Assembly: GCA_902826885.1 (NCBI GenBank)
Contig: CADEGL010000014.1
Coordinates: 1-64,000 of the forward strand
Source: an uncultured Alphaproteobacteria bacterium
GTDB lineage: Bacteria > Pseudomonadota > Alphaproteobacteria > CADEGL01
Direction of reading: 5' to 3'
Length of the DNA stretch: 64,000 bases
The notes beneath the pieces are model-generated. The model made no database searches. It was not told the origin of the DNA and worked only from the letters and a program-made list of their open reading frames with translations. Made by a program: the position numbers and the translations under genes. Positions 31,024-48,594 of this stretch are shown piece after piece (within the stretch, counting starts at the first letter, position 1; every line of letters starts with the position of its first letter).

Positions 31024-31055
31024 TCTAAAGGCCCTCGTTATCGGTCATAAATCGC

Positions 31056-32066: not shown

Positions 32067-32079
32067 CTGCGAATCCGCT

Positions 32080-33330
32080 CTAGTTACGCGCCAGAGTCAG
32101 GCCTTCCATGTCGATTTCCGGTTTGCGCCCGGCGATCACATCGACGACGGCGCGCGAGGCGCCGCATGCCATGGTCCAACCCGCCGCGCCGTGGCCCGCG
32201 TTGACGTGGAGATTGCGATAGCGGGTCGGGCCTAGGATCGGCGGGCCGCCCGGCGTGACAGGGCGCAGACAGGCGTAATAGGTCGGATTGGCATAGTCGG
32301 CGCCCTGCGGGAATAGATCACGCGCCACCTTAAAGACGCCTTTGTATTGATCGGGCGAATAGCTTTTGTCGTACCCCGCAAACTCGGCCTTGCCGCCCAC
32401 GCGCAGCTTGTCGCCCAGACGCGCGAAGGCGACCAAATTATCTTCTTCGATAATGCCGACCGTGGGCGCGCCGTTATAGCCGCGGGTCGAGACATTCATC
32501 GTGTAGCCCTTGATGGGATAAATCGGCAGGCGGACCCCCACGGAACGCGCCAGCTCCGGGCTTTCCAAACCGAGCGCCAGCACGAAGCAGTCGGCATCCA
32601 GATCCCCCTTGTCGGTGCGGACACCCGTGATGCGGTCCCCTTCCCGCTTCAGCCCCGTGACGGCCGTGTTCAGGCGGATATCCACGCCCTTGCCGCGGCA
32701 CAGCTTGGCCAGGTTGCGGGTGAAGATCAGCGCATCGCCCGCGCCGTCCATGGGCGCGTACATCCCGCCTGCGATCTTCTCTTTCGACACACCCAGCGCG
32801 GGCTCGATCCCCACGCACTGCTCGCGCGTCACTTCTTCGAGCGGTAGCCCGTGTTCCTTCAGCAGGTTCCACGCCGCCACGCCGTGTTCCAGCGTCCGCT
32901 GGGTGCGGAACAGGTAAAGAATGCCCTTGTCGTTGCCGTCGTATTCGATTCCCGTCTTGTCGCGCAGCACGCGCAGCTGTTCGATGCCGTATTTCATCAC
33001 ACGCATGATGCGCAACGTGTTCTCGCGATATTTCTCGGCCGTGCAGTTGCGCAGGAACTCGATGCCCCAACGCCAGAACTCGGGCTCCGTGCGGATGCGG
33101 AAACGCAGCACCGGATCGTCCTGAAACAGGGATTTGATGAGCGTCTTGGGCGCCGCCGGCGAAGCCCAAGCTTGGGAGTGGCCGGGCGCCAGAAGCGCGC
33201 CGTTCTGAAAACTGGTTTCAAGGCCCGTCTCTTCGCGGCGCTCGAGTACCGTGACCTGGTGGCCCTCTTGAGCCAGATACCAGGCAGTGGTGATCCCAAT
33301 AACACCGCCGCCCATGACAATGGATTTCAT
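32080..33330 (-). CDS. dadA: D-amino acid dehydrogenase, FAD-dependent (second copy)
   Basis: 416 residues, paralogue of the dadA at 29767, sharing the VMGGGVIGITTAWYLA dinucleotide site, RPVTPGGPPILGPTRY and the GHGAAGWTMACG C-terminal block. First gene of the dadA-ureohydrolase-dadA set; AAGGGGGAGAGACC precedes the ATG. The two copies differ clearly (for example FLRNCTAEKYRENTLRIMR against FLKNCTAERYRVNTLRKLR), so an old duplication or separate acquisition is likely rather than a recent copy. Transcribed away from the TauD gene. Confidence 0.88.
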   Translation of the reverse strand: MKSIVMGGGVIGITTAWYLAQEGHQVTVLERREETGLETSFQNGALLAPGHSQAWASPAAPKTLIKSLFQDDPVLRFRIRTEPEFWRWGIEFLRNCTAEKYRENTLRIMRVMKYGIEQLRVLRDKTGIEYDGNDKGILYLFRTQRTLEHGVAAWNLLKEHGLPLEEVTREQCVGIEPALGVSKEKIAGGMYAPMDGAGDALIFTRNLAKLCRGKGVDIRLNTAVTGLKREGDRITGVRTDKGDLDADCFVLALGLESPELARSVGVRLPIYPIKGYTMNVSTRGYNGAPTVGIIEEDNLVAFARLGDKLRVGGKAEFAGYDKSYSPDQYKGVFKVARDLFPQGADYANPTYYACLRPVTPGGPPILGPTRYRNLHVNAGHGAAGWTMACGASRAVVDVIAGRKPEIDMEGLTLARN

Positions 33331-33442: not shown

Positions 33443-34282
33443 ATGGACAGCAATTCCATCGAAATCCGGCCCATCGCCGGCGCGCTCGGCGCCGAGATCC
33501 ATGGCGTGGACGTGTCTCAGGATCTGCCTGATCACACGATCGCGGACATCCGCCGCGCCTTCCTCGATCACCTCGTCATTTTCTTCCGCGACCAGGATAT
33601 CAACTCCAAGCAGTTCCTGGCCTTCGCCCGACGCTTCGGCACGGTGATCGAGTATCCTTTCGTCCAGGGCCTGAACGAGGAGCCGCTCATCATTCCGGTC
33701 GTGAAGCTGGAGCACGAGAAGGTTAATTTCGGCGGCGTCTGGCACTCCGACACGACCTACCTGGAAAACCCGCCCATGGGGACGATGTTGGTCGCACGCG
33801 AAGTGCCGCCCTATGGCGGCGACACGCTGTTCGCCAACCAGTATCTGGCCTACGAGATGCTGTCGGACGGCATGAAGAAGCTGCTGGATGGTCTGAAGGC
33901 CATCAGCAGCTCGTCCAAGGCCGAGGTTTCTCGCACCCGCGAGGACCGGATCAAGTCGAGCCCGACAGAGCATTCCCGCAAGGAATATGCGGTCGAGCAC
34001 CCGGTGGTGCGCACCCATCCGGAAACGGGCCGCAAGAGCCTCTACATCAACACGGCCCACACGTTGCGCTTCCAGAACATGACCGAGGAGGAGAGCAAGC
34101 CTCTTCTCGACTACCTGTATCACCACCAGGTGCGCCCAGAATTCACCTGCCGCTTTTCCTGGCAGCCCGGTTCCATCGCCTTCTGGGATAACCGTTGCGC
34201 CCAGCACAATCCCGTCAACGACTATCACGGCTTCCGCCGCGTCATGCACCGCGTGACGCTCGAAGGCGACCGGCCGCGCTGA
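33443..34282 (+). CDS. TauD/TfdA family Fe(II)/2-oxoglutarate dioxygenase
   Basis: 279 residues. Iron ligands are H101 and D103 (VWHSDTTY) and about H255 (AQHNPVNDY); an arginine in FRRVMHRV binds 2-oxoglutarate. The YPIxG-like VEHPVVRTHPETGRKSLY is standard for the family, which hydroxylates taurine, alkyl sulfates, aryloxy acids and others. Start is taken at ATG 33443, though 33428 is possible. Divergent from the dadA set over a 112-base gap and followed by a CoA-transferase after 10 bases. Confidence 0.88.
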   Translation: MDSNSIEIRPIAGALGAEIHGVDVSQDLPDHTIADIRRAFLDHLVIFFRDQDINSKQFLAFARRFGTVIEYPFVQGLNEEPLIIPVVKLEHEKVNFGGVWHSDTTYLENPPMGTMLVAREVPPYGGDTLFANQYLAYEMLSDGMKKLLDGLKAISSSSKAEVSRTREDRIKSSPTEHSRKEYAVEHPVVRTHPETGRKSLYINTAHTLRFQNMTEEESKPLLDYLYHHQVRPEFTCRFSWQPGSIAFWDNRCAQHNPVNDYHGFRRVMHRVTLEGDRPR

Positions 34283-34292
34283 TTATCCGGCC

Positions 34293-35570
34293 ATGATCAA
34301 CCGCGCCGAGGCCATTCCGGCCCTGCTAAAGTCCGGCATGTCCGTCTTCGTCCAGGGCGGCGCGACCGAGCCCTCTTCCATTCTCGATGCCATCGCCGCG
34401 GCACCCGAATCAGCGTCCGGTGTTACGTTCACCCAGCCCAATGTCCCCGGCGTAAACCGGCGCGATCTGGCTGCGCTGCACCCCGATGCGCGCGTCGTGG
34501 CCATGTTCGCCACCCGCGACATCGACGTTTCGCTGCACGCGGGCAAGGTGCGCCTTCTGCCGTTCCACTATTCCGACCTGCACGGCTATCTATCGGGCCG
34601 CGCCCGGTTCGACCTGGCCATCGTCCAGGTTTCTCCGCCCGACGCGCACGGGCGTTGCAGCTTCGGCGTGGCGGGCGACATGGTGCCGGACGTACTGGCG
34701 CGCGCCGCGTCCATCGTGGCCGAGATCAACCCGCGCGTACCCTTCTCGCCTGGCGCACCATGGCTCGCCTATGACCGGATCGGCCATGTGGTCGAAGCCG
34801 ACCATTCGCTACTCGAATCGGGTAATCCGCCCGTGGACGACACACTGGCCGCGCTGGGCAGGAACGTGGCCGCGCTGGTGTCCGACGGCGATACGATCGA
34901 ATTCGGCCTGGGCGGGACGCCCAACGCCGTGCTGGCAGCCCTGCGCGGCAAGCGGGACATCGGCGTGCACACGGGCCTGGCGACCGACAGCCTGATCGAC
35001 CTGATCGAGGCCGGGGTGGTGACGAATGCGCGCAAGCCCATCGACACGGGAAAGTCCGTGACCGGCCTGGCCATCGGCACGCGCCGTCTCTACGACGCGC
35101 TGGGCGCGGGCGCGCCGGTCGACTTCCGCCCCGTTTCCTACACCCACGACCGCGCCACCATTGCCCGGCTGGACCGCTTCGTGGCGATCAACTCGGTGAT
35201 TGAAGTCGATTTATTCGGACAGGCGAACGCCGAGATGATTGGTGGGCGGCAGGTCAGCGGAACCGGCGGCCTGTTGGACTTCGTCGAGGCCGCACGGCGC
35301 GCGCCGCACGGGCGCTCGATCCTGGCCTTGCAGGCCGCGGCATCCGACGGCAAAACCTCGCGCATCGTGCCGGCCCTGGCAGCCGGCACCGTCGTCACGG
35401 TGCCGCGCGCCGAAGCCGACTACGTCGTCACCGAAAACGGCGTAGCGGAACTGCGCGATAAATCGGTGGATGAACGGGCCGAGGCGCTGATCGCCATCGC
35501 CGCTCCGTTCGCACGCGCCGAGCTTGCCGAAGCCTGGCGCAAGTTGCGCCCCGGACGCGCCGCGCGCTAA
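34293..35570 (+). CDS. Acetyl-CoA hydrolase/CoA-transferase family protein
   Basis: 425 residues of the Cat1/4-hydroxybutyrate CoA-transferase family: SPPDAHGRCSFG, GDTIEFGLGGTPNAVL, DFRPVSYTHD, and the catalytic glutamate in INSVIEVDLFGQANAEM, then GTGGLLDFVEAAR. It moves CoA between acyl groups, or hydrolyses the thioester. It is a single-gene version rather than the two-subunit type. Located after the TauD gene; the donor and acceptor acids are unknown. Its TAA overlaps the stop of the convergent Rieske gene. Confidence 0.88.
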   Translation: MINRAEAIPALLKSGMSVFVQGGATEPSSILDAIAAAPESASGVTFTQPNVPGVNRRDLAALHPDARVVAMFATRDIDVSLHAGKVRLLPFHYSDLHGYLSGRARFDLAIVQVSPPDAHGRCSFGVAGDMVPDVLARAASIVAEINPRVPFSPGAPWLAYDRIGHVVEADHSLLESGNPPVDDTLAALGRNVAALVSDGDTIEFGLGGTPNAVLAALRGKRDIGVHTGLATDSLIDLIEAGVVTNARKPIDTGKSVTGLAIGTRRLYDALGAGAPVDFRPVSYTHDRATIARLDRFVAINSVIEVDLFGQANAEMIGGRQVSGTGGLLDFVEAARRAPHGRSILALQAAASDGKTSRIVPALAAGTVVTVPRAEADYVVTENGVAELRDKSVDERAEALIAIAAPFARAELAEAWRKLRPGRAAR

Positions 35571-36724
35571 GCGCCGGTCATGGCCTCTTCCACGATATCG
35601 TGGAAATGGGCCAACCCCTTCTCATAGCGACCGAACGTCAGGTGCGAATTCGCGCCGGATGCGAAGCCCGCCTGAATGCCCTCGCCCACCACGAAATCCT
35701 CGTCGAGGGCGGTTCGGATCAGGCTGGCGTTCTTATCCCAATAGGCCTTGGCTTTTTCCGTCTCGGGCTTCTCCGGCAGGCAGAAAGACAGATGCATGAC
35801 CGAATGGTTCGCATCGCCGTTCGGAAACATCGCGAAGATGGCGGCATGATCGGCCACGAACACCATCACGGTGTTGGGAAAGATGTAATAGAGGATGTTG
35901 GAGTGATCGCGCAGACGCCACGAGGCCGGATCGGTGCCCGCCAGATCCTGCAGCGTACGCTTCGGGATCACATAGCGGATATGCCGCCCAAGGCGATCAT
36001 ACACAGATGCGTTGTCCAGATAGTATTTGTGCACACTTTGCCCGTGCACCCAGCGGAAGTGATAGTCCTCGAGGAACGTGTCGACCATCACTTTCCAGTT
36101 CATGGCACGCGGCAGTTCAACCGGCGCGTAGAGAGAAGCGCCATTCAAACCGAAATGGGCGAAGTCGGAGGCCAGCGGCCCCAGGAACGCATCGATATCC
36201 AGGGGTGCTTCGCCCGCTTCGGCTTTGCTGGGACGAACCCAAATCAGGCCATGCCGCTCGGTCGCCGGCAGCGAAACCAGCCTATGCGCCGCGCGATCCA
36301 GGCCCGCGAAGGCCGTGGCGTCGCTGATGCCGGCGAGCGTGCCGGTCAGATCGTAGCTCCAGGCATGGTACGGGCACACGAAGACGCGCCCCGCCTTGCC
36401 GGATGGTTCGGTCACGATGCGAGCACCGCGATGGCGGCATACGTTCAGGAACGCCCGCACCTGCCCGTCCGTCCCGCGCACCGCCAGGATCGGTACGCCA
36501 GTAAGGTCATGAGTCAGAAACGTGCCCGGCTCCGGCAGAGCCGAAGACGGGCCGACGATCACCGGGTGACGGCGGAACAGGTTGGAGAGCTCCGCCGCGT
36601 GACGCTGCGGCGAGATATAGGCATCGACCGCGCTCAGCCGTTCGCCGTTGGCCGTCTCGCGGCGGCCGGCCGCGAGATTCCCCAGAATGCGCTCGATCAA
36701 CGCGACTTCAACGTCGTGCTTCAT
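35567..36724 (-). CDS. Rieske non-haem iron oxygenase, alpha subunit (third copy)
   Basis: 385 residues. Rieske [2Fe-2S] ligands C96, H98, C117, H120 (NVCRHRG ... VCPYH) and the mononuclear iron site DYHFRWVHG (H, H) with a later acidic residue. It hydroxylates an aromatic or N-methyl/aliphatic substrate using electrons from a reductase, which is absent from the window. It is the most divergent of the three Rieske proteins here. ATG 36724 is chosen; 36760 is also possible, and neither has a convincing ribosome site. Confidence 0.85.
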   Translation of the reverse strand: MKHDVEVALIERILGNLAAGRRETANGERLSAVDAYISPQRHAAELSNLFRRHPVIVGPSSALPEPGTFLTHDLTGVPILAVRGTDGQVRAFLNVCRHRGARIVTEPSGKAGRVFVCPYHAWSYDLTGTLAGISDATAFAGLDRAAHRLVSLPATERHGLIWVRPSKAEAGEAPLDIDAFLGPLASDFAHFGLNGASLYAPVELPRAMNWKVMVDTFLEDYHFRWVHGQSVHKYYLDNASVYDRLGRHIRYVIPKRTLQDLAGTDPASWRLRDHSNILYYIFPNTVMVFVADHAAIFAMFPNGDANHSVMHLSFCLPEKPETEKAKAYWDKNASLIRTALDEDFVVGEGIQAGFASGANSHLTFGRYEKGLAHFHDIVEEAMTGA

Positions 36725-36838
36725 TGGAATGCGATAAGCTAGCTCATGCCCCTCTGCCATTCGGTATCACAGCGCGACATGGCGCGCGACGGTTCCCATC
36801 GACATAATCGCATCCGACGCCAGCCAGGGAGGCAGCCC

Positions 36839-37654
36839 GTGACCTACGAAACCCTTCTCTACAACGTGGACGACCGCGTTGCCGTCGTGACCTTCAACCG
36901 TCCGGATCGCATGAACTCCTTCAGCCTGAAGCTGCGGCAGGAGCTGGTTGCCGCGCTGAAGGCTGCCGAGGCCGATCCCGAGGTGCGCGTCGTGGTGATC
37001 AAGGGGGCCGGCGGTAAGGCATTTTCCGCAGGCTACGACATCAAGGAGACCGCAGACGGCAAAGAGCGCACCATGGACGAGTGGCGCGCGCTCCTGGGCG
37101 AGGAATTTCAGTTTTGCCTGTCGCCCTGGCAGTGTTCGAAACCCGTCATCGCCCAGATCGAGGGCCATTGCCTGGCGGGCGGTCTTGAATTCGCCCAGAT
37201 GTGTGACATCCGCTACGCCTCGGACGATTCGAAGTTCGGCGTGGTCGAGACCCGCTTCTCGAACGGCATTTTGATGTTGGCCATGCCCTGGGTGATCGGC
37301 CAGCTATCCCGCGAGTTGATCTATACGGGCGACACGTTCGACGCGGAAGAAGCCAAGCGCCTCGGCCTGGTGAATCGCGTGTTTCCGAAGGCCGATCTGG
37401 AGCAGGAAACGATGAAGATCGCCAAGCGCATGTCGCGCGTGGCGGATGCCTGCCTGCGCTGGAACAAGCGCGCCATCAACAACACGTTCGAGGCGATGGG
37501 CTTCCGCTCGGCGCTTCAGTACGGGTTCGAAGCCTGCGTCATCATGGATGCGACCGACACACCCGAATACAAGGCGTTCAACAAGCTTCGCACCACGGAA
37601 GGCCTCAACGCCGCCCTCGCCCATCTGCGCGATACGTTCAAACCTTACGAATAA
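36839..37654 (+). CDS. Enoyl-CoA hydratase/isomerase family protein
   Basis: 271 residues, crotonase fold. The oxyanion-hole segments are GKAFSAGYDIKE and IEGHCLAGGLEFAQMCDIRYAS; the second catalytic glutamate position falls in the GVVETRFSNG segment. GTG 36839 is the start, with GGGAGG 7 bases upstream; the longer frame is discarded. It probably serves beta-oxidation of a CoA ester made by the nearby CoA-transferase. Divergent from the Rieske gene over 114 bases. Confidence 0.85.
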   Translation: MTYETLLYNVDDRVAVVTFNRPDRMNSFSLKLRQELVAALKAAEADPEVRVVVIKGAGGKAFSAGYDIKETADGKERTMDEWRALLGEEFQFCLSPWQCSKPVIAQIEGHCLAGGLEFAQMCDIRYASDDSKFGVVETRFSNGILMLAMPWVIGQLSRELIYTGDTFDAEEAKRLGLVNRVFPKADLEQETMKIAKRMSRVADACLRWNKRAINNTFEAMGFRSALQYGFEACVIMDATDTPEYKAFNKLRTTEGLNAALAHLRDTFKPYE

Positions 37655-37657
37655 GCC

Positions 37658-38374
37658 TCAGCCCTTGCCTTCCAGGCGCTTGATCGTCGCGGCCTGCCAA
37701 TCGGCGGCGCGCTTCTGACTTTCCGCGACCTCGGCCTTCGTCATGTCCTTCGTCAAAGCCTGCGCCCGCTCGTCGGCGCGCGGATAACCCTCCGACGCCG
37801 CGATCGTATACCATTTAAGCGCCTCGACCCTGTCCTTGGCCACGCCCTGACCGTGCTTGTAGGCAAAGCCCAGGCGGTACTGGGCATGGCCGTTGCCCTT
37901 CTCGGCCGCCCGCTTGAACCATTCGACGGCCTTTTGAGGGTCTTTGGCGACGCCCCAACCTTGGAAATACATGACACCAAGGCGGACCTCGCCCTCGGCA
38001 TAGCCCTGCTCGGCTGATTTACGGAACCATTCGGCGGCCTTGGCCTGATCCCTCTGCACGCCTGTGCCGGTGGCAAAGAGCGCCCCCAAATAAGCCTGCG
38101 CCGGCGCATCACCCCGGCCTGCGGCTAGCGAGAACCACTGCGCGGCCTCGACAGGATCGACGTTAACCCCTTGCCCTTTGAAATACATAATACCGAGCGC
38201 CCGCTGCGACATGGCATCGCCCTGGGCGGCCGAGCGCCGGAACTCGATCATCGCGGCACCGTAATCGCCGGCCGCCAGCGCGGCCATGCCGGATTCGTAA
38301 TCGGCCCAAGCGGGCGCCGAGAGGCCGCCAACAATCACGCCGATCGAAAGCAGACGAAAAGCGATGTGCTTCAT
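37658..38374 (-). CDS. Exported Sel1-repeat protein
   Basis: 238 residues with a signal peptide (FRLLSIGVIVGGLSAPAWA) and about five Sel1-like repeats of the form A-x-x-x-LG-x-MYFxGQGV-x-x-D-x-x-x-A-x-x-WF. Such proteins are periplasmic adaptors in protein-protein binding. Its start is 1 base from the end of the PhyH gene upstream, so it is co-transcribed with it, though a functional link is not evident. Confidence 0.82.
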   Translation of the reverse strand: MKHIAFRLLSIGVIVGGLSAPAWADYESGMAALAAGDYGAAMIEFRRSAAQGDAMSQRALGIMYFKGQGVNVDPVEAAQWFSLAAGRGDAPAQAYLGALFATGTGVQRDQAKAAEWFRKSAEQGYAEGEVRLGVMYFQGWGVAKDPQKAVEWFKRAAEKGNGHAQYRLGFAYKHGQGVAKDRVEALKWYTIAASEGYPRADERAQALTKDMTKAEVAESQKRAADWQAATIKRLEGKG

Positions 38375-38375
38375 G

Positions 38376-39185
38376 TCACTTCGGTTTGTAAATGGCCAAC
38401 GGGCCGGACATCGAACGTTCATACGCCGCCACCGCGATGGGATCAAAATCGAAACGCGGGATCGGCTCCAGTTCATAGTAGCCGTGCGTGTCCTCGCCCG
38501 CGACCAGTGTTGCACCCATCGCGCCCCGCGCGGTCGTGCGGGCATGGGGTGCGGCAAAGATACAGCTCCAGCCGATCCGCGGCCGGTCGGACCCGTTGGC
38601 CTCCGAGCCATGCACAACATGATTGGCATGCATGGAAAGCTGGCCCGGCTCCAATTCGATATGCACGGCCTTTTTCGTGTCGATGTCGCGCACCTGGCGG
38701 GAAAACTTCAGCATGTTGTTCTCGCCCGGGATTAGGTCGTAAGCGAGATCACCCTGCTTCTGGGTGCCGGGGATCACTTTGAGCGCGCCGTTGTCTGGCT
38801 TGCTGTCGGTGAGCGCCAACCATGCGGCCAGGGCAGCCGGCGGCTGAAGCTGGAGATAGGTATTGTCCTGATGCCAGGAGACATAGGAGGAGTCGCGTGC
38901 GTTCTTCCAGAAGAAACCGGATTCCAGGCACAGCACGTTGGGGCCCAGCACGTCCTGCAAGGCCGCGACGATGCGTGGATGATGGATCAGGTCGGATAGG
39001 CATTTGAGCAGGAGATGCGCCTTGCCGCGCATGACCTCCTTGACGGTCTTGCCAGACGATTTCTCCCACGCACGCAGCATGGCCAACGCTTGGGACGCCT
39101 CGCCCTCGGAGAGGACGGGGATGCCCGCGACGTAGCCCAATTCGTGAAACTGGGTGACCTGCGATTCGCTCAGGATTCTCGGCAT
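38376..39185 (-). CDS. Phytanoyl-CoA dioxygenase (PhyH) family protein, copy 1
   Basis: 269 residues, Fe(II)/2-oxoglutarate hydroxylase. Iron ligands are H105 and D107 (SWHQDNTY) and H192 (VVHGSEAN), with the arginine of DRPRIGW binding 2-oxoglutarate. The aspartate is kept, so it is a hydroxylase, not a halogenase. It aligns closely with PhyH copy 2 at 42608 (same ligand positions), so the pair is paralogous. It directly follows the HD-domain gene HD1 (25-base gap), the arrangement of PhnY with PhnZ and TmpA with TmpB. Confidence 0.9.
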   Translation of the reverse strand: MPRILSESQVTQFHELGYVAGIPVLSEGEASQALAMLRAWEKSSGKTVKEVMRGKAHLLLKCLSDLIHHPRIVAALQDVLGPNVLCLESGFFWKNARDSSYVSWHQDNTYLQLQPPAALAAWLALTDSKPDNGALKVIPGTQKQGDLAYDLIPGENNMLKFSRQVRDIDTKKAVHIELEPGQLSMHANHVVHGSEANGSDRPRIGWSCIFAAPHARTTARGAMGATLVAGEDTHGYYELEPIPRFDFDPIAVAAYERSMSGPLAIYKPK

Positions 39186-39210
39186 TCGATCACGGCGCGG
39201 CGAAACGATT

Positions 39211-39831
39211 TCAGGCGTAGGCGCGTGACAGCGCGTCGTCCATCTTGGTTTGCCCGCCCCACGGTTCGCGCGCGAAGATGCGCCGGACCATGGGCTCGAA
39301 CGCCTCCAGCGGCATCGTGTCATAGTTGGGATCGAACGACATCTGGTCGTACTTGCCGCAGAAATCGGCGCAGCGCTCGTAGTCCGGATGGCCGCGGAAC
39401 TTATCGCGCGCGTTCCGGTCCAGGTCGAAATGGTGGAAGTAGTAGTAACCCTGGAACAGGCCGTGGCGCAGGATGACCCAGTGCGTCGAGGGCGAGACAT
39501 AGGGACGCAGCACTGAAGCCGCGAACTCGGCATGGTTTTCGGGGCAGTGCATGTCGCCGATGTCGTGGAGCAGCGCGGCGACCACCATCTCTTCGTCCTG
39601 GCCGTCGCGGTGGGCGCGCGTCGCGCTCTGGAGCGAATGGACGTAGCGGTCGACCTGCTCGCCCGGATAGCTCTTCTTCAGCGCGCTGACGGCATCCAGC
39701 AGCCGGTCGGCCAGCTTGGACTTGAACGGTTTCGAGAGCTCGACGCAGGCGTGGTATTCCTCGCGCGTCCCCTCATCCATGGTGTTGTATTTGGCGATCA
39801 CCACATGGCTGGGATCGTTCTTAATGATCAT
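39211..39831 (-). CDS. HD-domain protein with diiron-oxygenase ligand set (HD1)
   Basis: 206 residues, single HD domain. Metal ligands are H65, H89, D90, H100, H123 and D162, six in the spacing of the mixed-valent diiron oxygenases PhnZ and myo-inositol oxygenase, rather than the typical HD phosphohydrolase. The LLHDIGD and NHAEFAASVL blocks and the ILRHGLFQGYYYF helix follow PhnZ. Ribosome site GGGAGGAC. It has a paralogue, HD2. An oxidative C-C or C-P cleavage of a hydroxylated product is inferred, not shown. Confidence 0.8.
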   Translation of the reverse strand: MIIKNDPSHVVIAKYNTMDEGTREEYHACVELSKPFKSKLADRLLDAVSALKKSYPGEQVDRYVHSLQSATRAHRDGQDEEMVVAALLHDIGDMHCPENHAEFAASVLRPYVSPSTHWVILRHGLFQGYYYFHHFDLDRNARDKFRGHPDYERCADFCGKYDQMSFDPNYDTMPLEAFEPMVRRIFAREPWGGQTKMDDALSRAYA

Positions 39832-39916
39832 GATGTCCTCCCTCGTCCTCGCCGGAAATGATACGCCCGAACGCCCCCTGGACGCGAGGCGTGGCCCGCC
39901 CGTACGGATAACCAAA

Positions 39917-39955
39917 CCCCAAAAGCAAACCGGCCGCCCTTGCGAGGCGGCCGGT
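39917..39955 (-). terminator. Rho-independent terminator between HD2 and HD1
   Basis: Perfect 10-bp stem ACCGGCCGCC/GGCGGCCGGT with a 7-base loop, followed on the minus strand by TTTGCTTTTGGG. It ends the PhyH2-SDR1-Rieske1-HD2 transcript; HD1 and PhyH1 then need their own promoter. Confidence 0.8.
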
Positions 39956-39962
39956 CAATAAT

Positions 39963-40577
39963 TCAGTACCCCGAGGGGAACTGTTCGGTCTTGGTCTGCG
40001 GCCCCCAGGGCTCGCGGCCGAACACGCGCCGCACCATCGGCTCGAACGCCGAGAGCGGCATGGTGTCCATGTTCGGATCAAACGCGGTCTGGTCGTACTT
40101 GGCGCAGAAGTCGGCCGTCATCTGGTAGCAAGGGTGGCCGCGGAACCGGTCGCGCATGTTCCGGTCCTTGCCGTAGTGATGGAAGAAGTAATAGCCCTGG
40201 AACAGGTTGTGATGGACGATCATCCAATACACCTCGGGCGAGACGTACGGCTTCAACATCTCGGCCGCCATGAGGGCGTGATTGTCCGGGCAAAGCAGGT
40301 CGCCGATATCGTGGATCAGCGCGGCCACCACGAACTCCTCGCTCTCGCCGGCGCGGTGCGCCTGGGTCGCGGTCTGGAGCGAGTGGACATAGCGGTCCAC
40401 GGCCATGCCGGGGAAGCTTTCCGCCAGGTTGGGCAGGTAGGCCAAAATGCGGTCCGCGGTCTGGGCCTTGAAGGGCTTCGCCAGCTCCTTCAGAAGGAGA
40501 TATTCCTCCTTCGTGCCGTCTTCCATCCGGCGGTAACTTTCCGCCCGCGTGTTCTTACCCGGCGACATAACATTCAT
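39963..40577 (-). CDS. HD-domain protein with diiron-oxygenase ligand set (HD2)
   Basis: 204 residues, paralogue of HD1 with the six ligands at the same positions: H65, H89, D90, H100, H123 (VHHNLFQGYY) and D162 (KYDQTAF). Long shared blocks such as GYY(Y/F)FHH, FRGHP and AFEPMVRR show a common origin, while the N-terminus differs. It lies 93 bases after the Rieske gene on the same strand. Function is inferred as an iron oxygenase of the PhnZ type, partner unknown. Confidence 0.8.
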   Translation of the reverse strand: MNVMSPGKNTRAESYRRMEDGTKEEYLLLKELAKPFKAQTADRILAYLPNLAESFPGMAVDRYVHSLQTATQAHRAGESEEFVVAALIHDIGDLLCPDNHALMAAEMLKPYVSPEVYWMIVHHNLFQGYYFFHHYGKDRNMRDRFRGHPCYQMTADFCAKYDQTAFDPNMDTMPLSAFEPMVRRVFGREPWGPQTKTEQFPSGY

Positions 40578-40670
40578 TGGAAACCCTCCTGCCCTTGGGC
40601 GGCGTCCAGTCCGCCCGTTTCCTGAAATCCCAACTGTTATATCAGTTTTTCGCTGCGCCGCGAAAGCCGC

Positions 40671-41855
40671 TTACGCCGCCTGCGAAACCTGATCGACGAC
40701 CCACCGGCGGAAGCTGTGCGCCACCGCCTCCAAGTGGCAAACGCGTCCCGCCGTGGCGAAAGGCGAGCTCACGCCGGCCTGCTGCTGCTCGGTGATCACC
40801 ACGTCCTCGGCCGTGGTCACATCCAGCCGCTCGTAGTAACCCTGGACCTTCTCCGCGAAATCCGGGCGCTGGGTCGTCTCTTTGGGGAAACAGGTCCCCA
40901 GCACCAGCTTGCTGCGGTCCGGCCCCAGCGGCTGGATCTCGACATACCACATGCCCTCGCGCTGGCAGGAAATGGTCGTCGCCGGAAACGGATAGGACCA
41001 GATCGAGCCGTCGCGGGTACGGCCTTCCAGCGACTTGATGGGCGGAAACGGCTCGCGCCCCGGCAGGAGGCCGCGGCTGCCGATATGGCGGCCGACCAGG
41101 GACGAATAATTCTTACCAAACTCCAGCTTCACCGGCGCGTTGTCGCCGCCCTCACCAAATAGAAGGCCAGAGTTACCCGACATCACGGTCGCGCCCTCGT
41201 CCTCATTCTTGGTGGCCAGCGTCGTCGTGTGAACGTGCGGCGTGTGATAGGGCTCCTGGACATTCTCGTAGTAGATTTTCCAGTTGCAGCCGACTTCCAA
41301 TTCGCGGCGTCGCACCAATTCCATGTCGTCGAAATTGTACGACTCCAGCTTGTCGACCAAGTCGCCGAGCTGCGCCTTGAGCGGCGGCGCACTCTTGTCG
41401 AAGTTGATGAACATGAAGCGGCCCCACTTCTCCAGACGGATCGGAAAGAGACCGTAATCCGCCTTGTCGAAGCCCTTGGAGTGCTCCATCTGCGGCGCGC
41501 CGGTCAGGCGGCCATCCAAATTGTAGACCCAGCCGTGATAACCGCATTTGAACGCGCGCACGTTACCCGTGCCGCTGATGACGCGGCAGCCGCGATGGCG
41601 GCAGGTGTTGGCGAAGGCATGGATTTCGCCCACACGGTCGCGCACCACGATGACGGGCACGCCCACCAGGTCGAACGCCATGTAGTCGCCGGGCTTCGCC
41701 ACCTGGCCATCATGGCCGATGAAGTTCCAGCGCTTCATGAAGATGTGCTTCACCTCACGGTCGAAGAACTCGCGGCTGGTGTAGCATTCCGGCGGCATCG
41801 TCTCCGCCTCGAGGGCGGGCTTGCGTACGTTCTGAAAAATATCGGCCTGAAGCAT
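40671..41855 (-). CDS. Rieske non-haem iron oxygenase, alpha subunit (first copy)
   Basis: 394 residues. Rieske ligands C85, H87, C104, H107 (TCRHRG ... CGYHGWV); mononuclear iron site in NWKIYYENVQEPYHTPHVH. Resembles the choline/glycine-betaine/carnitine type of monooxygenase as much as aromatic dioxygenases, and no beta subunit lies nearby, which favours the former. GAGGGACC precedes the start. Between SDR1 and HD2 on the same strand. An electron-donating reductase is missing from the window. Confidence 0.88.
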   Translation of the reverse strand: MLQADIFQNVRKPALEAETMPPECYTSREFFDREVKHIFMKRWNFIGHDGQVAKPGDYMAFDLVGVPVIVVRDRVGEIHAFANTCRHRGCRVISGTGNVRAFKCGYHGWVYNLDGRLTGAPQMEHSKGFDKADYGLFPIRLEKWGRFMFINFDKSAPPLKAQLGDLVDKLESYNFDDMELVRRRELEVGCNWKIYYENVQEPYHTPHVHTTTLATKNEDEGATVMSGNSGLLFGEGGDNAPVKLEFGKNYSSLVGRHIGSRGLLPGREPFPPIKSLEGRTRDGSIWSYPFPATTISCQREGMWYVEIQPLGPDRSKLVLGTCFPKETTQRPDFAEKVQGYYERLDVTTAEDVVITEQQQAGVSSPFATAGRVCHLEAVAHSFRRWVVDQVSQAA

Positions 41856-41870
41856 TTCCGGTCCCTCGTC

Positions 41871-42608
41871 TTAAGGCGCAGACTCGATGCCGCCGTCCAC
41901 GGCAATGACCTCGCCCGTCACATACCCATTCGTCATAAGATACATGCCCGCCTGGGCGCAATCGTCCGCCTGCCCTACCCGCTTCACCGGAACCTTGCTG
42001 GCATAGGCGCCGAATAGCTGTTCCTTCACCTCGGGCGGGATGCGCTCGACGTAAGCAGTCTCGATGATACCGGGCGAAATGCAGTTCACGCGGATGCCGC
42101 GCGGCGCCAACTCGTGCGCCAGAGAGCGGGTAGCCGCATCCAGAGCGCCGTCAATCACCGCGCCGATGACATAGCCCGGCACCGGGCGCCGGTTTGCGAG
42201 ACCGGAGTAGAATACCATGCTGCCGCCCCGGCGGATGTGATCGCGCGCGTCATAGGCGGTCCAGAACGGCCCCCAGAACTTGGCGTGAACCGAACCCTTG
42301 GCCTTGTCCTCTTCCATGTCGGCGAAGGGTGTGCGGTAGACCGTCGCACCCGGCAGGATCAGGTGGTCGAACGGGGCCTGCCACTTCAAATAGGCCGCCA
42401 CCGCCGCACGGTCGCGCATGTCGAGCGCTTCGTAAGATAGCGAACCGCCTTCCTTGGCCAATGTCTCGGCCGCGCGCTGCAGCCGTTCCATGCCGCGGGC
42501 AGAGATCGCCACTTCGGCGCCCGCGCGCAAGGCGTGGGCCGCGGTCGCCAGGCCTATTCCGGCCGAAGCGCCGATGACGATGACCTTCTTGCCCGCAAGC
42601 GCGCCCAT
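41871..42608 (-). CDS. SDR family oxidoreductase with atypical active site (SDR1)
   Basis: 245 residues. The NAD(P) site VIGASAGIG and the C-terminal RVNCISPG are classical, but the catalytic YxxxK is missing: the segment reads RPVPGYVIGAV, with alanine at the lysine position counting from that tyrosine. Serine in FYSG remains. SDR2 shares this change. TGATG overlap with the PhyH2 gene and 15 bases to Rieske1 make it part of that operon. It may dehydrogenate the hydroxylated product, or may not be an oxidoreductase at all. Confidence 0.85.
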   Translation of the reverse strand: MGALAGKKVIVIGASAGIGLATAAHALRAGAEVAISARGMERLQRAAETLAKEGGSLSYEALDMRDRAAVAAYLKWQAPFDHLILPGATVYRTPFADMEEDKAKGSVHAKFWGPFWTAYDARDHIRRGGSMVFYSGLANRRPVPGYVIGAVIDGALDAATRSLAHELAPRGIRVNCISPGIIETAYVERIPPEVKEQLFGAYASKVPVKRVGQADDCAQAGMYLMTNGYVTGEVIAVDGGIESAP

Positions 42609-43429
42609 CAGGCGCCCCGGCGCAGGCTTTTGGCGGCTTCCCGGTAGAGCCCGAGGGCGTGATCGAAGGCCGCAAGTCCTTCGGGATCGAACTCCTTGGT
42701 CGGCACGGGCTCGGACTCGAAATTGCCATGGTCCCTGCCCCGCACCAGCGTCGCGCTCGTGCGCGGAATGGACGTCTCCCTGAAATTCGCGCCGACATAC
42801 TGGATCGAGAAGCCGATGCGCGGGCGGCCCGATGTGTTCGGGTTGGAGCCGTGCACGATGCGCTCGTGATGCAGGATCATCTCGCCGGGTTTCAGCCTGG
42901 TGTCCACCGCGCGCGCTTCGTCCACGCCGCCCTGCACCTCCAAACTGGTGGTCAGCAGGTTGTTGGCCTTGTTTGTCCACTCGTGCGACGTGATGTTCTC
43001 GTTATGCGAGCCGGGGATGTAACGGACGCTGCCGTTGTCGGTCGCCGCATCGGTGAAGGCGAGCCACACGGTCACCGCATCCTTGGGTTGCCAGCTCCAG
43101 TACCACGTGTCCTGGTGCCAGGAGACGAAAGCCGGGTCCTTGGCGCGCTTCACGAAGACGCCGCCGCCCCAGCACATGATATCGGGCCCCAAAACGTCCT
43201 CGACTGCATCGACGATTTCCTTCCGGCGCACGAGCTCGGCGAGCCAGGGCATCAGGAGATGAGCCTTGGTGCGCAGCCGCACGCTGGCTTTCTCGCCCGT
43301 GGTCTTCTCGAACGCGTCGATCTTGCGGACGCAATCGGCGGCCTCGACTTCCGAGATACCGCGCACGGGGAAGACGAACCCGTCCCGCTTGAACGAATCG
43401 ACCTGATTTTGGGCCAATGCCTTGGGCAT
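42608..43429 (-). CDS. Phytanoyl-CoA dioxygenase (PhyH) family protein, copy 2
   Basis: 273 residues. Iron ligands H105 and D107 (SWHQDTWY) and H193 (IVHGSNPN), arginine in GRPRIGF for 2-oxoglutarate. The conserved WHQDTWYWSWQP stretch and EMILHHERIVHGS are standard. First gene of the PhyH2-SDR1-Rieske1-HD2 operon; AGGACGTA precedes the ATG. Paralogue of PhyH1, with which it shares RTKAHLLM and LGPDIMC-type blocks. Confidence 0.9.
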   Translation of the reverse strand: MPKALAQNQVDSFKRDGFVFPVRGISEVEAADCVRKIDAFEKTTGEKASVRLRTKAHLLMPWLAELVRRKEIVDAVEDVLGPDIMCWGGGVFVKRAKDPAFVSWHQDTWYWSWQPKDAVTVWLAFTDAATDNGSVRYIPGSHNENITSHEWTNKANNLLTTSLEVQGGVDEARAVDTRLKPGEMILHHERIVHGSNPNTSGRPRIGFSIQYVGANFRETSIPRTSATLVRGRDHGNFESEPVPTKEFDPEGLAAFDHALGLYREAAKSLRRGA

Positions 43430-43584
43430 TACGTCCTCCGTTTTCCTTTACTCAACCTAGCGACCGCCGCGACGCCCCCCAAGCACAACGTTTTGGATAG
43501 CAATTGGCCGAGATATTTTCCGATGGCGGCGCCCTCGCCAAACCGCTATCCCGATTGACGGGCAATCACAATGCGGGTGGCGAC

Positions 43585-44325
43585 ATGGGCGCGCTGGACG
43601 GAAAGAAGGTCGTCGTGATCGGCGGCTCGGGCGGCATCGGCTACGCCACCGCCGAAATGGCGCACAAGGAAGGCGCCCATGTCGTGCTGACCTCGCGCGA
43701 TAAAAGCCGCGCTGAAGCGGCGGCCGCGAAGATCGCGGGCAAGTCGGGCCGCATCACGCCGGGCGTGGCGGAAGTCGGCGACCGTGCCGCGACCGCTGCG
43801 TTCCTCAAGAGCCACGGCAAGTTCGATCACCTGATCTTGAGCGGCTCGACCGTGCATCGCCTCGTTTTCGACGCGCTGCCGGAAAAGGAATCTTACGAAT
43901 CCTTCGACAGCAAATTCTGGGGACCGTTCTGGGCCGCCTATGACGGCCGCCATCACATGAACAAGGGTGGCAGCATTATTTTCTATTCGGGCGCGGCCTC
44001 GCGCCGGCCGTTGCGCGGCTATGTCGTCGGCGCGGCCATCGACGGCGCGATCGACGCGGCCACGCGCTCGCTTGCGTGGGAACTGGGCTCGGAGGGGTTG
44101 CGCGTGAACTGCATCTCGCCAGGCGTGATCCTGACGGATTTGATCCGCAAGGGCCGCACGCAAGCCGAGTTCGACAAGCGCATGCAGGAACACTCCAAGC
44201 GTGTCCCGCTGGGACGCATCGGCGAGCCATCGGAATGCGCCAATGCCGCGCTGTTCCTGATGACGTGCGGTTTCGTGACCGGCGAGGTGCTGGCCGTGGA
44301 CGGCGGAACCGAGGCCGCGCCCTAA
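43585..44325 (+). CDS. SDR family oxidoreductase with atypical active site (SDR2)
   Basis: 246 residues. Rossmann site VIGGSGGIGYA, C-terminal RVNCISPGVI. As in SDR1 the segment RPLRGYVVGAA lacks the lysine of YxxxK. ATG 43585 with GGGTGGCGAC upstream is preferred to the frame from 43504. Shares KFWGPFWAAYD with SDR1, so they are paralogues; SDR1 is about one operon away on the other strand. It converges on the RraA gene with a shared 4-base CTAA stop. Confidence 0.85.
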   Translation: MGALDGKKVVVIGGSGGIGYATAEMAHKEGAHVVLTSRDKSRAEAAAAKIAGKSGRITPGVAEVGDRAATAAFLKSHGKFDHLILSGSTVHRLVFDALPEKESYESFDSKFWGPFWAAYDGRHHMNKGGSIIFYSGAASRRPLRGYVVGAAIDGAIDAATRSLAWELGSEGLRVNCISPGVILTDLIRKGRTQAEFDKRMQEHSKRVPLGRIGEPSECANAALFLMTCGFVTGEVLAVDGGTEAAP

Positions 44326-44990
44326 AGCTTTTTGAACTTGTTCAGGGCCTGGGCAAAGGTCAGGCCCTTTTTGATCTCGCGGATGGCCTGCTTGTCCTGG
44401 GCATCGAAGGACTTGGCCATCTTGGCCACCTTCTCCGCCACCTCGATGGGCACGCAGACGACGCCGGTGGCATCGGCGCAGATGATGTCGCCCGGCCGCA
44501 CCAGCACGCCGTCCATCTTCACCGGCACGTTGACCGCCAAGACCTTCACCCGCCCCTTGGCCGAGGTGGGCGTGATGTGGCGCGAGAAGACCGGGAATTT
44601 AAACTGCACCATTTCGTCCGCGTCGCGCACGCCGCCGTCGACCAAAAGGCCGGCCACGCCCTTGTACTTCGCGGCGTAAGAGGCGATGCCGCCCCAGGTC
44701 GAAACCTGGTGGCCGGCATTGTCGATCACCACGACGTCGCCCTTGCCGGCATTGTCGATGATGGCACCCAGCTTGAAGTCGGCGCCGGTATAGCTGCCGT
44801 GGATGCCGGTCACTTCCTTGGCCGTGAAGGCAGGGCCGACGTATTTCGAACCGGGCCACACGGGGCGTAGGTTCGGCATGACTCCATAGATACCGAGGTC
44901 ATCGAGCGCATTGCCGATGGTGCTGGTGCCGATGCCCTTGAGCGCGGCGATAACCGCCTTCGGCGGCCGCTTGATCGTGCCGATTTCCAT
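44322..44990 (-). CDS. RraA / 4-hydroxy-4-methyl-2-oxoglutarate aldolase family protein
   Basis: 222 residues. The RraA-type sequence has VIDNAGHQVSTWGGIASYAAKYKGVAGLLVDGGVRDADE, with the R-D pair of the divalent-metal aldolases, and GDIICADATGVVCVP. Members act as HMG/CHA aldolases that cleave 4-carboxy-type hydroxy acids to pyruvate, or decarboxylate oxaloacetate; others inhibit RNase E. With the oxygenases around it, a catabolic aldolase is more likely. GAGAAAG precedes the ATG. Next upstream gene is Rieske2, 22 bases away. Confidence 0.82.
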   Translation of the reverse strand: MEIGTIKRPPKAVIAALKGIGTSTIGNALDDLGIYGVMPNLRPVWPGSKYVGPAFTAKEVTGIHGSYTGADFKLGAIIDNAGKGDVVVIDNAGHQVSTWGGIASYAAKYKGVAGLLVDGGVRDADEMVQFKFPVFSRHITPTSAKGRVKVLAVNVPVKMDGVLVRPGDIICADATGVVCVPIEVAEKVAKMAKSFDAQDKQAIREIKKGLTFAQALNKFKKL

Positions 44991-45011
44991 GACGTCTTTC
45001 TCGCGAAGGAT

Positions 45012-46190
45012 TTAAGGGCTGTTGCCGATGACCTGGTTGAGCCACCGATGACGGATGGCGTGGATCTTGTCTTCGACGTGGCAGACGGGGCCCGCCACGG
45101 CCAGGCTGTTCTCGGCGCCCTTCTGCTGCTTGGGCAGCATGTCGACATCCTCGCCCATCACCAGGTCCCAACGCTTGAAGTAGCGCTGGGAGACCTCCTC
45201 GAAATCCGGCCGGTTGACGGCATCGTCCGGGAAACAGCCCACCTGCACTACCTTCGTGCGGTTATGGGCGATCGGGTAGATTTCGAGGAACCATGTGCAG
45301 TCCTGATGGAAGCTCATCATGGCCGACGGCAGGATACAGCCGGACGTGGTGCCGTTGGCGATGCGCCCCGGCAGGTTTTCCATCAGTGGAAAGCCCGTGT
45401 CGCCCGCGAGAAGGGCGCGCGTGCCTTCGTGCGGCATGAAGAAGAAGACGTAATCGCCCGTCCCCTGCTCCGCCGGCAGGACGACCATCGGCGCGCCCGC
45501 CTGGCCCAGGAAATTCACCGGCTTCTGATAGACCGAGCGCAGGTGCAGATAGGGCGTGTGGTAGTACTCCAGGAAATTCTCGACCATGAATTTCCAGTTG
45601 CAGGCGATGTCGTGTTCGCGCCGGAAGCGCGGACGCATGCTTTCGAGGCGATAGCCGTCGATCTTCTGCGGCAGGTCGCCCAGATGGGCCGACAGCGGCT
45701 TCGCGTCCGGATCGAAGCAGATGAACATGTAGCCGCCCCAGGTCTCGAGGCGGATGGGGATGAGGCCGTAATCCTTCTTCTCGAAGGATTTGGCGTCCTC
45801 CATGTCCTGCACGCCAATCAGCGAGCCGTCCAGGCCGTAGACCCAGGAATGATACGGGCACTTGATGGCGCGGCAATTGCCCGCGCCGTCATTGAGCAGC
45901 CGCGCGCCGCGATGGCGGCAGGTGTTCGCGAAGGCACGGACCTTGTTGTCCTTGTCGCGCACCACGATCACCGGCACGCCGACGAAATCGAAGGCGATGT
46001 AGTCGCCCGGCTTCTCGACGCGCTCGACCCGGCCGATGAAGTTCCAGGTCTTCATGAAAATGCGCTCGACCTCGCGCTGGAAATACTCCGGCGTGGTGTA
46101 GCACCAAGGCGGCAGCGACAAGGCGCCCGGCGCATTGGCGGGCAGGCGCACGCGCGCATAATGCTGCGGGTCGAAAATATCGAGCGGCAT
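45012..46190 (-). CDS. Rieske non-haem iron oxygenase, alpha subunit (second copy)
   Basis: 392 residues. Rieske ligands C91, H93, C111, H114 (TCRHRG ... CPYHSWV); iron site NWKFMVENFLEYYHTPYLH. Similar to copy 1 throughout the N-terminus (CYTTPEYFQREVERIFMKTWNFIG-type start), so the two are paralogues. CCAGGAGGACTGG gives a strong ribosome site. Followed by the RraA gene on the same strand, suggesting oxygenation followed by aldol cleavage. Confidence 0.88.
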   Translation of the reverse strand: MPLDIFDPQHYARVRLPANAPGALSLPPWCYTTPEYFQREVERIFMKTWNFIGRVERVEKPGDYIAFDFVGVPVIVVRDKDNKVRAFANTCRHRGARLLNDGAGNCRAIKCPYHSWVYGLDGSLIGVQDMEDAKSFEKKDYGLIPIRLETWGGYMFICFDPDAKPLSAHLGDLPQKIDGYRLESMRPRFRREHDIACNWKFMVENFLEYYHTPYLHLRSVYQKPVNFLGQAGAPMVVLPAEQGTGDYVFFFMPHEGTRALLAGDTGFPLMENLPGRIANGTTSGCILPSAMMSFHQDCTWFLEIYPIAHNRTKVVQVGCFPDDAVNRPDFEEVSQRYFKRWDLVMGEDVDMLPKQQKGAENSLAVAGPVCHVEDKIHAIRHRWLNQVIGNSP

Positions 46191-46290: not shown

Positions 46291-47181
46291 ATGGCGCGGA
46301 CAATCGTTCTGGACGGCGGCACGGGCCGCGAGTTGAGCCGGCGGGGCATCGAGGTACCGCCCAACATCTGGTCTGCCCATGCGCTCATGCATGCGCCAGG
46401 CGCCGTGCGCGACGTCCATCTGGACTTCTACAAAGCCGGCGCGGACGTCATCACGACCAACAACTACACGACCACGCCCGACATCCTGGGCCGTATCGGG
46501 CTCTCGCACCGCGTGGCCGAACTGACCGGCATCGCGCGCGATTTGGCTATGGACGCCAAGGAAAAATCCGGCCGCAAGGGCGCCCGTATCGCGGGCTCCC
46601 TACCGCCCTTGGTCTCTAGCTACCGCCCGGACCTGGTCAAAAAGCCCGAGGAGATGCGTCCGATCTATGACGAGATCGCCGGCATCCTGGCGCCGGGCGT
46701 CGATCTCTTCATCTGCGAGACCATGTCGAGCGCCGTCGAGGCGCGCACCGCGGCCGAAGCGGGCCTGGCCGCGGGCAAACCCGTCTGGGTTTCGTGGACG
46801 CTGGAAGACGAGATCTATACCGGCCGCCTGCGCAGCAATGAGACCATCGCCCAGGCGCTGGCCGCGCTCGACGGGCTGGATGTGGAAACCGTGCTGTTCA
46901 ACTGCTCCCCACCCGAAGCCATCGACGTGGGCCTGCCCGAACTGCGGCCCCAGACCAGGCGCAAGATCGGCGCCTATGCCAACGGCTTCCTGCCGGTGCC
47001 AAAGAAATGGCTCCTGAACGAGGGCGGGCTCAACAAGCTGCGCGGCGATGTCGACGCCGAGATGTACGGCGCCTTCGCCCAACGCTGGATCAACGACGGC
47101 ATCGACGTGCTGGGCGGCTGTTGCGGCATCGGGCCAGAGCATATCCGCAAGATCCGCGACATGGTGGACGCGAAGGGCTAG
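46291..47181 (+). CDS. mmuM: Homocysteine S-methyltransferase family protein
   Basis: 296 residues, betaine/homocysteine methyltransferase fold. Zinc ligands are the cysteine in FNCSPPEA and the CC pair of LGGCCGIGPEH. Starts with LDGGTGRELSRRG, standard for the family. It transfers methyl from S-methylmethionine or a methylated amine such as betaine to homocysteine; with Rieske enzymes of the betaine type nearby, the latter donor deserves a test. GGAGGGGTGG precedes the ATG. Its stop is shared with the convergent lipoyl gene. Confidence 0.87.
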   Translation: MARTIVLDGGTGRELSRRGIEVPPNIWSAHALMHAPGAVRDVHLDFYKAGADVITTNNYTTTPDILGRIGLSHRVAELTGIARDLAMDAKEKSGRKGARIAGSLPPLVSSYRPDLVKKPEEMRPIYDEIAGILAPGVDLFICETMSSAVEARTAAEAGLAAGKPVWVSWTLEDEIYTGRLRSNETIAQALAALDGLDVETVLFNCSPPEAIDVGLPELRPQTRRKIGAYANGFLPVPKKWLLNEGGLNKLRGDVDAEMYGAFAQRWINDGIDVLGGCCGIGPEHIRKIRDMVDAKG

Positions 47182-47477
47182 GCCTGCTCGGCCGGCACGA
47201 AGCCCGCGACGTAGGACTGCACCTCGGTATCGCCCTCGCCGCCGTCAACGATCACGCCGATCAAAGCCCCCACGGGCGCGACGGTGCCTTCGGCCACCAC
47301 CTGGCGCAACGTGCCCGCGTTCTGGCTTTCCAGCTCGTTCGTGCTCTTCTCGATTTCGATGTCCGCCACATGCTGGCCGGCGGCTACCGCCTGGCCTTCG
47401 CCGATCTGCCACTTGGAAACCGTGCCCTCCTCCATGGTCAGGCCGATCTTGGGCATGGTGAGCGGATGGATGGTCAT
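47178..47477 (-). CDS. Stand-alone lipoyl-domain protein
   Basis: 99 residues with only a lipoyl domain. The lipoylated lysine is K44 in DIEIEKSTNE, and MPKIGLTMEEGTV and the VGALIGVI turn are standard. No E3-binding or acyltransferase domain follows: it ends 14 residues past the domain. It lies downstream of the E1 beta gene. It may act as the acyl carrier for the E1 pair, with another protein as acyltransferase. AAAGGA precedes the ATG. Confidence 0.85.
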   Translation of the reverse strand: MTIHPLTMPKIGLTMEEGTVSKWQIGEGQAVAAGQHVADIEIEKSTNELESQNAGTLRQVVAEGTVAPVGALIGVIVDGGEGDTEVQSYVAGFVPAEQA

Positions 47478-47511
47478 CGGATCAATCCTTTGAGCAACAT
47501 TGAAACAACCG

Positions 47512-47570
47512 CCTCATGCTGAACCTGCCGAAGCATGAGGGCCTCGCCCTTCGACGCCCTCAGGACGAGG
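47512..47570 (-). repeat. Pair of inverted 29-base palindromic repeats (REP-like)
   Basis: Unit 1 (47512-47540) has a perfect 9-bp stem CCTCATGCT/AGCATGAGG. Unit 2 (47542-47570), on the opposite orientation, matches it at 19 of 29 positions around a CTGA....CGAAG core, with CCTCG/CGAGG ends. They sit one base apart between the E1 beta and lipoyl genes. The form is that of paired REP elements. Confidence 0.65.
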
Positions 47571-48582: not shown

Positions 48583-48594
48583 TGGCGCGCCTCC

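Follow-up and report, generated by a model that had tools for sequence, protein, structure and literature searches.

A conserved oxygenase locus pairing PhyH proteins with putative diiron HD proteins in an uncultured alphaproteobacterium

What could a bacterium do with eight iron oxygenases encoded within less than 13 kb? The question is raised by positions 33443–46190 of a 64,000-nucleotide stretch of DNA (hereafter the window; contig CADEGL010000014.1, positions 1 to 64,000 of the forward strand) from an uncultured Alphaproteobacteria bacterium, for which an initial annotation had proposed an oxidative pathway acting on a single compound class. Pfam profile assignments of the window's proteins located all eight oxygenases named there, namely one TauD, two PhyH, three Rieske alpha subunits (R1–R3) and two HD proteins, together with two SDRs, a CoA-transferase, an enoyl-CoA hydratase/isomerase family protein (ECH), an RraA-like protein and an S-methyl_trans protein. 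The motifs checked in the sequence are intact (Rieske CxH/CxxH, HxD...H..R in PhyH1 and PhyH2, HxD in TauD), and the catalytic YH...H segment was found in R1, R2 and R3. We tentatively favour reading the region as a composite oxygenase locus that has been conserved and whose two hydroxylase–cleavase pairs would probably break C–C bonds in a non-phosphonate compound.

The core of the locus consists of two paralogous pairs on the minus strand. In core unit A, PhyH2 (42608–43429; PF05721, closest PDB sequence 6zyk), SDR1 (41871–42608; PF13561), R2 (40671–41855; PF00848) and HD2 (39963–40577) are packed with a 1-bp overlap followed by gaps of 15 and 93 bp. Downstream of HD2 lies a terminator-like hairpin (39956–39928) with a 12-pair stem, also present in a congener, and then core unit B, with HD1 (39211–39831; PF01966) and PhyH1 (38376–39185; PF05721). 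Promoter and terminator scans gave site numbers at chance level overall. Each HD protein is accompanied by a 2-oxoglutarate hydroxylase, PhyH2 heading the unit of HD2 and PhyH1 lying 25 bp downstream of HD1. Including SDR2 (43585–44325, plus strand; PF13561) and R3 (45012–46190, minus strand; PF00848), a Rieske–SDR–PhyH–HD set occurs twice, a duplication unremarked by the initial annotation; the paralogs are 64% (HD1/HD2), 39% (PhyH1/PhyH2), 45% (R2/R3) and 51% (SDR1/SDR2) identical.

The characterised HD oxygenases listed in a 2020 review are only MIOX, PhnZ and TmpB, which have in common the six-ligand motif H...HD...H...H...D (PMC8177086). Forty-nine loci were fetched; in all 50 aligned HD sequences the diiron ligands H65, H89, D90, H100 and H123 are present, with D162 in 49. 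A Foldseek search with an AlphaFold2 model of HD2 (pLDDT 90) returned solely PhnZ, TmpB and MIOX entries as its top 11 matches (E values of 3e-5 to 1e-4 for PhnZ and TmpB and 0.04 for MIOX), the rest being no better than 0.2. By alignment and model, HD1 and HD2 share the fold and the six diiron ligands of these enzymes, and they are predicted to be diiron oxygenases. The pocket appears to differ: where PhnZ and TmpB have the His of their HDLGH/HDIGH motif, 48 of the 50 aligned sequences have Asp and two have Lys. At the YxxE loop of PhnZ and TmpB, HD1 (YPGE) retains the Glu and HD2 (FPGM) does not; the HD1 orthologs in three genomes of the order (G001, G002 and G004) keep it, the HD2 orthologs carry Met or Asn, and Tyr stands in place of Glu in 40/50 sequences. 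HD1 falls far short of the NCBIfam equivalog cut-offs (44.2 against 214.6 bits for Phn-HD, 39.9 against 300 for TmpB, and a third score of 31.7 against 300), and HD2 lies under the MIOX Pfam cut-off (20.3/25). The His-to-Asp replacement makes phosphonate an unlikely substrate of HD1 and HD2, and cleavage of a C–C bond is probably the natural alternative for mixed-valent diiron chemistry.

To see how the locus is retained, we compared the five genomes of the window's order in our collection: the source genome (G000, 3.87 Mb), G001 from the same genus, G002 from the same family, G003 and G004. The HD family was found in all five. Almost the entire block is retained in G001 and G002, except that in G002 R1 is apparently split over contigs C64 and C184, PhyH2 is missing, and an MFS transporter lies between SDR2 and the RraA gene. 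In G004, one contig carries SDR1-R2-HD2-HD1-PhyH, another cupin-E1 alpha-E1 beta-lipoyl-R3-PhyH and a further one CoA-transferase-PhyH-R1. The G003 genes are spread over three contigs, which hold R2-HD2 with two PhyH genes, R3, and CoA-transferase-PhyH, respectively; the contigs of these two genomes are short, and linkage between units cannot be judged there. The core is thus present, whole or in part, in 5/5 genomes. In G003 and G004 it also holds an opposite-strand saccharopine-dehydrogenase-like protein (L078 5161–6336 and L079 2734–3891) that the window copy lacks.

A second unit is formed by R3, which has orthologs in G001–G004, as does R2, and which travels with the RraA-like aldolase/decarboxylase (44322–44990, minus strand; PF03737) and with 2-oxoacid dehydrogenase E1 genes and a stand-alone lipoyl protein. 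The R3–RraA pair is kept in G001 and G002, and E1 genes lie near R3 in G001, G002 and G004. In the window, E1 beta and E1 alpha (47560–49572; PF02779/PF02780 and PF00676) are followed on the minus strand by the 99-residue lipoyl-domain protein (47178–47477; PF00364, 54 bits), which adjoins PdhB in G002 and G004 too; neither E2 nor E3 was seen adjoining the trio (47178–49572). The third unit combines TauD, a TauD/TfdA-family 2-oxoglutarate dioxygenase (33443–34282, plus strand; PF02668, 226 bits) that remains below the taurine dioxygenase equivalog cut-off (262.5/313 bits), with a CoA-transferase of the acetyl-CoA hydrolase family (34293–35570, plus strand; PF13336) and R1 (35567–36760, minus strand; PF00848 and PF00355). 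The CoA-transferase has one ortholog in each of the five genomes (56–90%), the G004 copy being split over two contigs. The co-occurrence elsewhere that the initial annotation had asked about is therefore non-random, with all three units recurring in the same small order. Their retention, over three genera, is the strongest evidence of function.

In the mechanism that we infer, hydroxylation beside the bond to be broken would fall to a PhyH 2-oxoglutarate oxygenase, with a Rieske monooxygenase assisting, and an SDR would then oxidise or reset the alcohol. The HD protein, acting as a mixed-valent diiron oxygenase with O2, would cleave the bond adjacent to the hydroxyl, probably C–C and not C–P, following the logic of PhnY*/PhnZ and TmpA/TmpB; the PhyH/HD pairing singled out by the initial annotation fits this hydroxylase–cleavase scheme. 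The RraA aldolase, the CoA-transferase and hydratase (ECH, 36839–37654, plus strand; PF00378) and the E1–lipoyl unit may pass the fragments to central metabolism, and the Rieske enzymes would draw electrons from one genome-wide ferredoxin–reductase chain. Our guess for the substrate would be a carboxylated quaternary or N-methylated amine.

The Rieske enzymes bear on both the electron route and the substrate. R1, R2 and R3 carry the bridging Glu (E205 in CntA) found in CntA, YeaW and Stc2-like references, whereas four aromatic references (HcaE, NdoB, AntA and BenA) have Asp at this position. R1–R3 also share the short segment preceding the catalytic YH, and both features recall the group V (quaternary-amine) Rieske oxygenases CntA/YeaW, GbcA and Stc2 (PMC7948474, PMC10952381). 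However, the Cys206/Cys209 pair of some group V members (PMC10952381) is missing from all three, which read EDYHF, EPYHT and EYYHT, and our tree places them outside the branch of group V references (support 90/89), so that their assignment to group V was rejected. R1 sits on a separate long branch, and R2 and R3 fall within a 20-row radiation that, one Caballeronia enzyme excepted, comes nearly entirely from the window's order. A recent duplication of R2 and R3 was likewise rejected, since the two have separate sets of orthologs in the order. Four other Rieske proteins of the source genome (L122, L127, L129 and L130) do lie inside group V, away from the locus.

No PF00970 (FAD_binding_6) match was obtained in the five genomes and no PF00175 (NAD_binding_1) match in the source genome, although the controls were detected, so the order shows no FNR-type reductase. 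Exactly one PF14759 (Reductase_C) ferredoxin reductase is encoded per genome (5/5), unlinked to the cluster and located in the source genome at G000:C1:192984-193235. With 14–26 Rieske alpha genes per genome of the order, the simplest reading is that one shared reductase apparently feeds them all, which would make the order a simple test case for many Rieske oxygenases served by one reductase.

Beyond the order, a sample of 55 other alphaproteobacterial families gave strong HD family matches in 16, and the family also occurs in gamma- and betaproteobacteria, SAR324, actinobacteria and myxobacteria. The closest outside match to the locus, in SAR324, also joins HD, PhyH and Rieske genes; SAR324 loci combine these with a class II aldolase and a GBBH/TmpA-like dioxygenase, and in one of them (L010) a carnitine 3-dehydrogenase scores 750 bits against an equivalog cut-off of 592. 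On the Pseudomonas plasmid pF045_1 (NZ_CP115240.1, L107, 41–50 kb; cystic fibrosis), genes for a LysR regulator, a TmpA-like dioxygenase (347 bits, under the cut-off of 400), HD, a choline substrate-binding protein, choline dehydrogenase and aldehyde dehydrogenase stand in a row, and gammaproteobacterial HD loci have MTTB and dimethylglycine-dehydrogenase-like neighbours. Such contexts suggest, but do not show, a quaternary-amine substrate. Pfam assignments for the 69 genes directly adjoining HD in 35 deduplicated loci outside the window's order revealed no dominant neighbour. When inner flanks were compared with outer ones, class II aldolase (4 loci against 0) and MTTB (3 against 0) were confined to the vicinity of HD, in small numbers. 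No tested family reached more than four of the 35 loci; with no common neighbour, the HD family taken together is likely to serve several functions.

Somewhat more tentatively still, these HD proteins may represent a class of mixed-valent diiron oxygenases that is widespread but has gone unrecognised. Working in amine or carboxylate breakdown, they would cleave C–C bonds next to a carbon that a PhyH or GBBH-type partner has hydroxylated, and phosphonate surveys may be counting them wrongly as PhnZ-like. Our literature search linking this HD family to PhyH/Rieske or to carnitine yielded nothing. If the proposal is true, diiron C–C cleavage would reach into bacterial catabolism through a further, common kind of HD protein whose pocket has changed. 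This could also help explain the spread of published phnZ abundances, which place it among the rarest phosphonate genes in some cases and make it the commonest in others (PMC10574752).

Several observations weigh against the reading we tentatively favour. With R1, ECH, SDR2 and a homocysteine S-methyltransferase family protein (HMT; 46291–47181, plus strand; PF02574) standing alone, besides the R3–RraA and TauD–CoA-transferase pairs and the two core units, the locus comprises at least six transcription units and is not one operon; the single pathway for one compound class put forward in the initial annotation is not supported. A search for an operator shared between the intergenic regions found only a few 10–12-mers in GC-rich DNA. 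PhyH adjoins HD in few lineages, namely the window's order, SAR324-type loci (L010, L017, L019, L049 and L050) and one gammaproteobacterium (L031), and the surroundings of HD genes at large are heterogeneous, with no dominant neighbour. One-carbon genes were not seen in the window, and the position of R1–R3 in the tree belongs here as well. Finally, the replaced residue is matched to PhnZ H62 by alignment, and we take it that this His, with two further residues, contacts the phosphonate in PhnZ and TmpB.

One alternative is a phosphonate locus, in which PhyH would hydroxylate an aminophosphonate and HD would cleave its C–P bond to release phosphate, as PhnY*/PhnZ do in 2-aminoethylphosphonate oxidation. 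The adjacency of a 2-oxoglutarate hydroxylase and an HD-fold protein with six ligands agrees with this, as does the YxxE loop of HD1, but the loss of the HDxGH His and the low Phn-HD and TmpB scores do not; moreover, the locus has two pairs with Rieske and SDR partners, and no phosphonate transporter or phn gene was noticed in the window. We regard this function, entertained in the initial annotation, as very improbable. TmpA/TmpB, which oxidise trimethylaminoethylphosphonate, share the two-step logic, and on pF045_1 an HD relative follows a TmpA-like dioxygenase; here, however, the partner is PhyH and not of GBBH type, and HDIGH has become HDIGD. MIOX, a C–C cleaving HD diiron oxygenase, works without a hydroxylase partner. 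The locus, which would work like PhnY*/PhnZ by hydroxylating and then cleaving beside the hydroxyl but fails the phosphonate-family tests, seems best filed as a variant HD diiron oxygenase system. A quaternary-ammonium catabolic locus would instead combine group V-like Rieske N-demethylases or C–N lyases with 2-oxoglutarate enzymes that hydroxylate betaine-type compounds and with cleavage by HD, giving glycine-betaine-like products; the methyltransferase and DadA-type oxidases would take up methyl and amine products. The bridging Glu of R1–R3 and the carnitine, choline, TmpA/GBBH-like, MTTB and dimethylglycine-dehydrogenase-like surroundings of HD relatives argue for it, and to this extent the methylated amine or betaine guessed at earlier is possible. 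It is nevertheless unlikely given that R1–R3 lie outside group V and lack the Cys pair, that the group V enzymes of the genome are encoded elsewhere, and that neither an FNR-type reductase in the order nor one-carbon oxidation genes nearby were found. The methyltransferase, previously cited in support, helps little, as it reaches no equivalog cut-off and is only 51% identical to its G002 counterpart.

Another rather unlikely possibility is that the locus has no single function, being a set of unrelated catabolic units brought together by duplication and regional synteny in an oxygenase-rich genome, as proposed for SAR202 degraders of refractory organic matter. The source genome encodes 60 such genes (20 PF00848 Rieske, 23 PF05721 PhyH and 17 PF02668 TauD), so that 0.20 are expected per 12.75 kb, against six observed; when 60 genes were placed uniformly at random, a maximum of at least six per 12.75 kb arose in 1/5000 trials, a null that tandem duplication breaks. 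At least 25 first-look PhyH candidates occur in only about 4 of 191 sampled genomes of the class, including the source genome and its congener, and other oxygenase clusters exist, with Rieske alpha arrays of three or more on G000 contig C70 (three in tandem; L083, 5001–16496) and several in G002 C46 (L142). The unusual density noted initially is thus real, yet part of genome-wide oxygenase hoarding and less special than it looks. The order-centred radiation holding R2 and R3, the many transcription units, and the flanking cupin, LysE and IorAB genes, also syntenic in G002, fit unrelated units. The SAR202 expansions resemble this genome in their many Rieske-type paralogs, carried by uncultured degraders (PMC5395668, PMC6946804); here, though, the lineage is Alphaproteobacteria, PhyH and TauD are expanded as well, and HD pairs are present. 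Against it stand the doubled PhyH–SDR–Rieske–HD combination, its core kept across three genera, and the same joining of HD, PhyH and Rieske in SAR324.

The remaining features concern the surroundings. A Sel1-repeat-like protein (37658–38374, minus strand), called from its sequence and with an 88% ortholog in G001, is probably incidental. Upstream, a ureohydrolase (closest PDB sequence guanidinopropionase 3nip) lies between two DadA-like FAD dehydrogenases (29767–33330), a trio kept in G001, and the protein at 26039–27721 reads as a membrane region joined to a [2Fe-2S] ferredoxin-like and an adenylate cyclase domain. The C70 Rieske array adjoins a LysR-like regulator and Hyu-like genes. Beyond the window end, at G000:C14:65901-67680 (L082 1871–3701), are two divergent TauD genes, one of them 54% identical to the window TauD.

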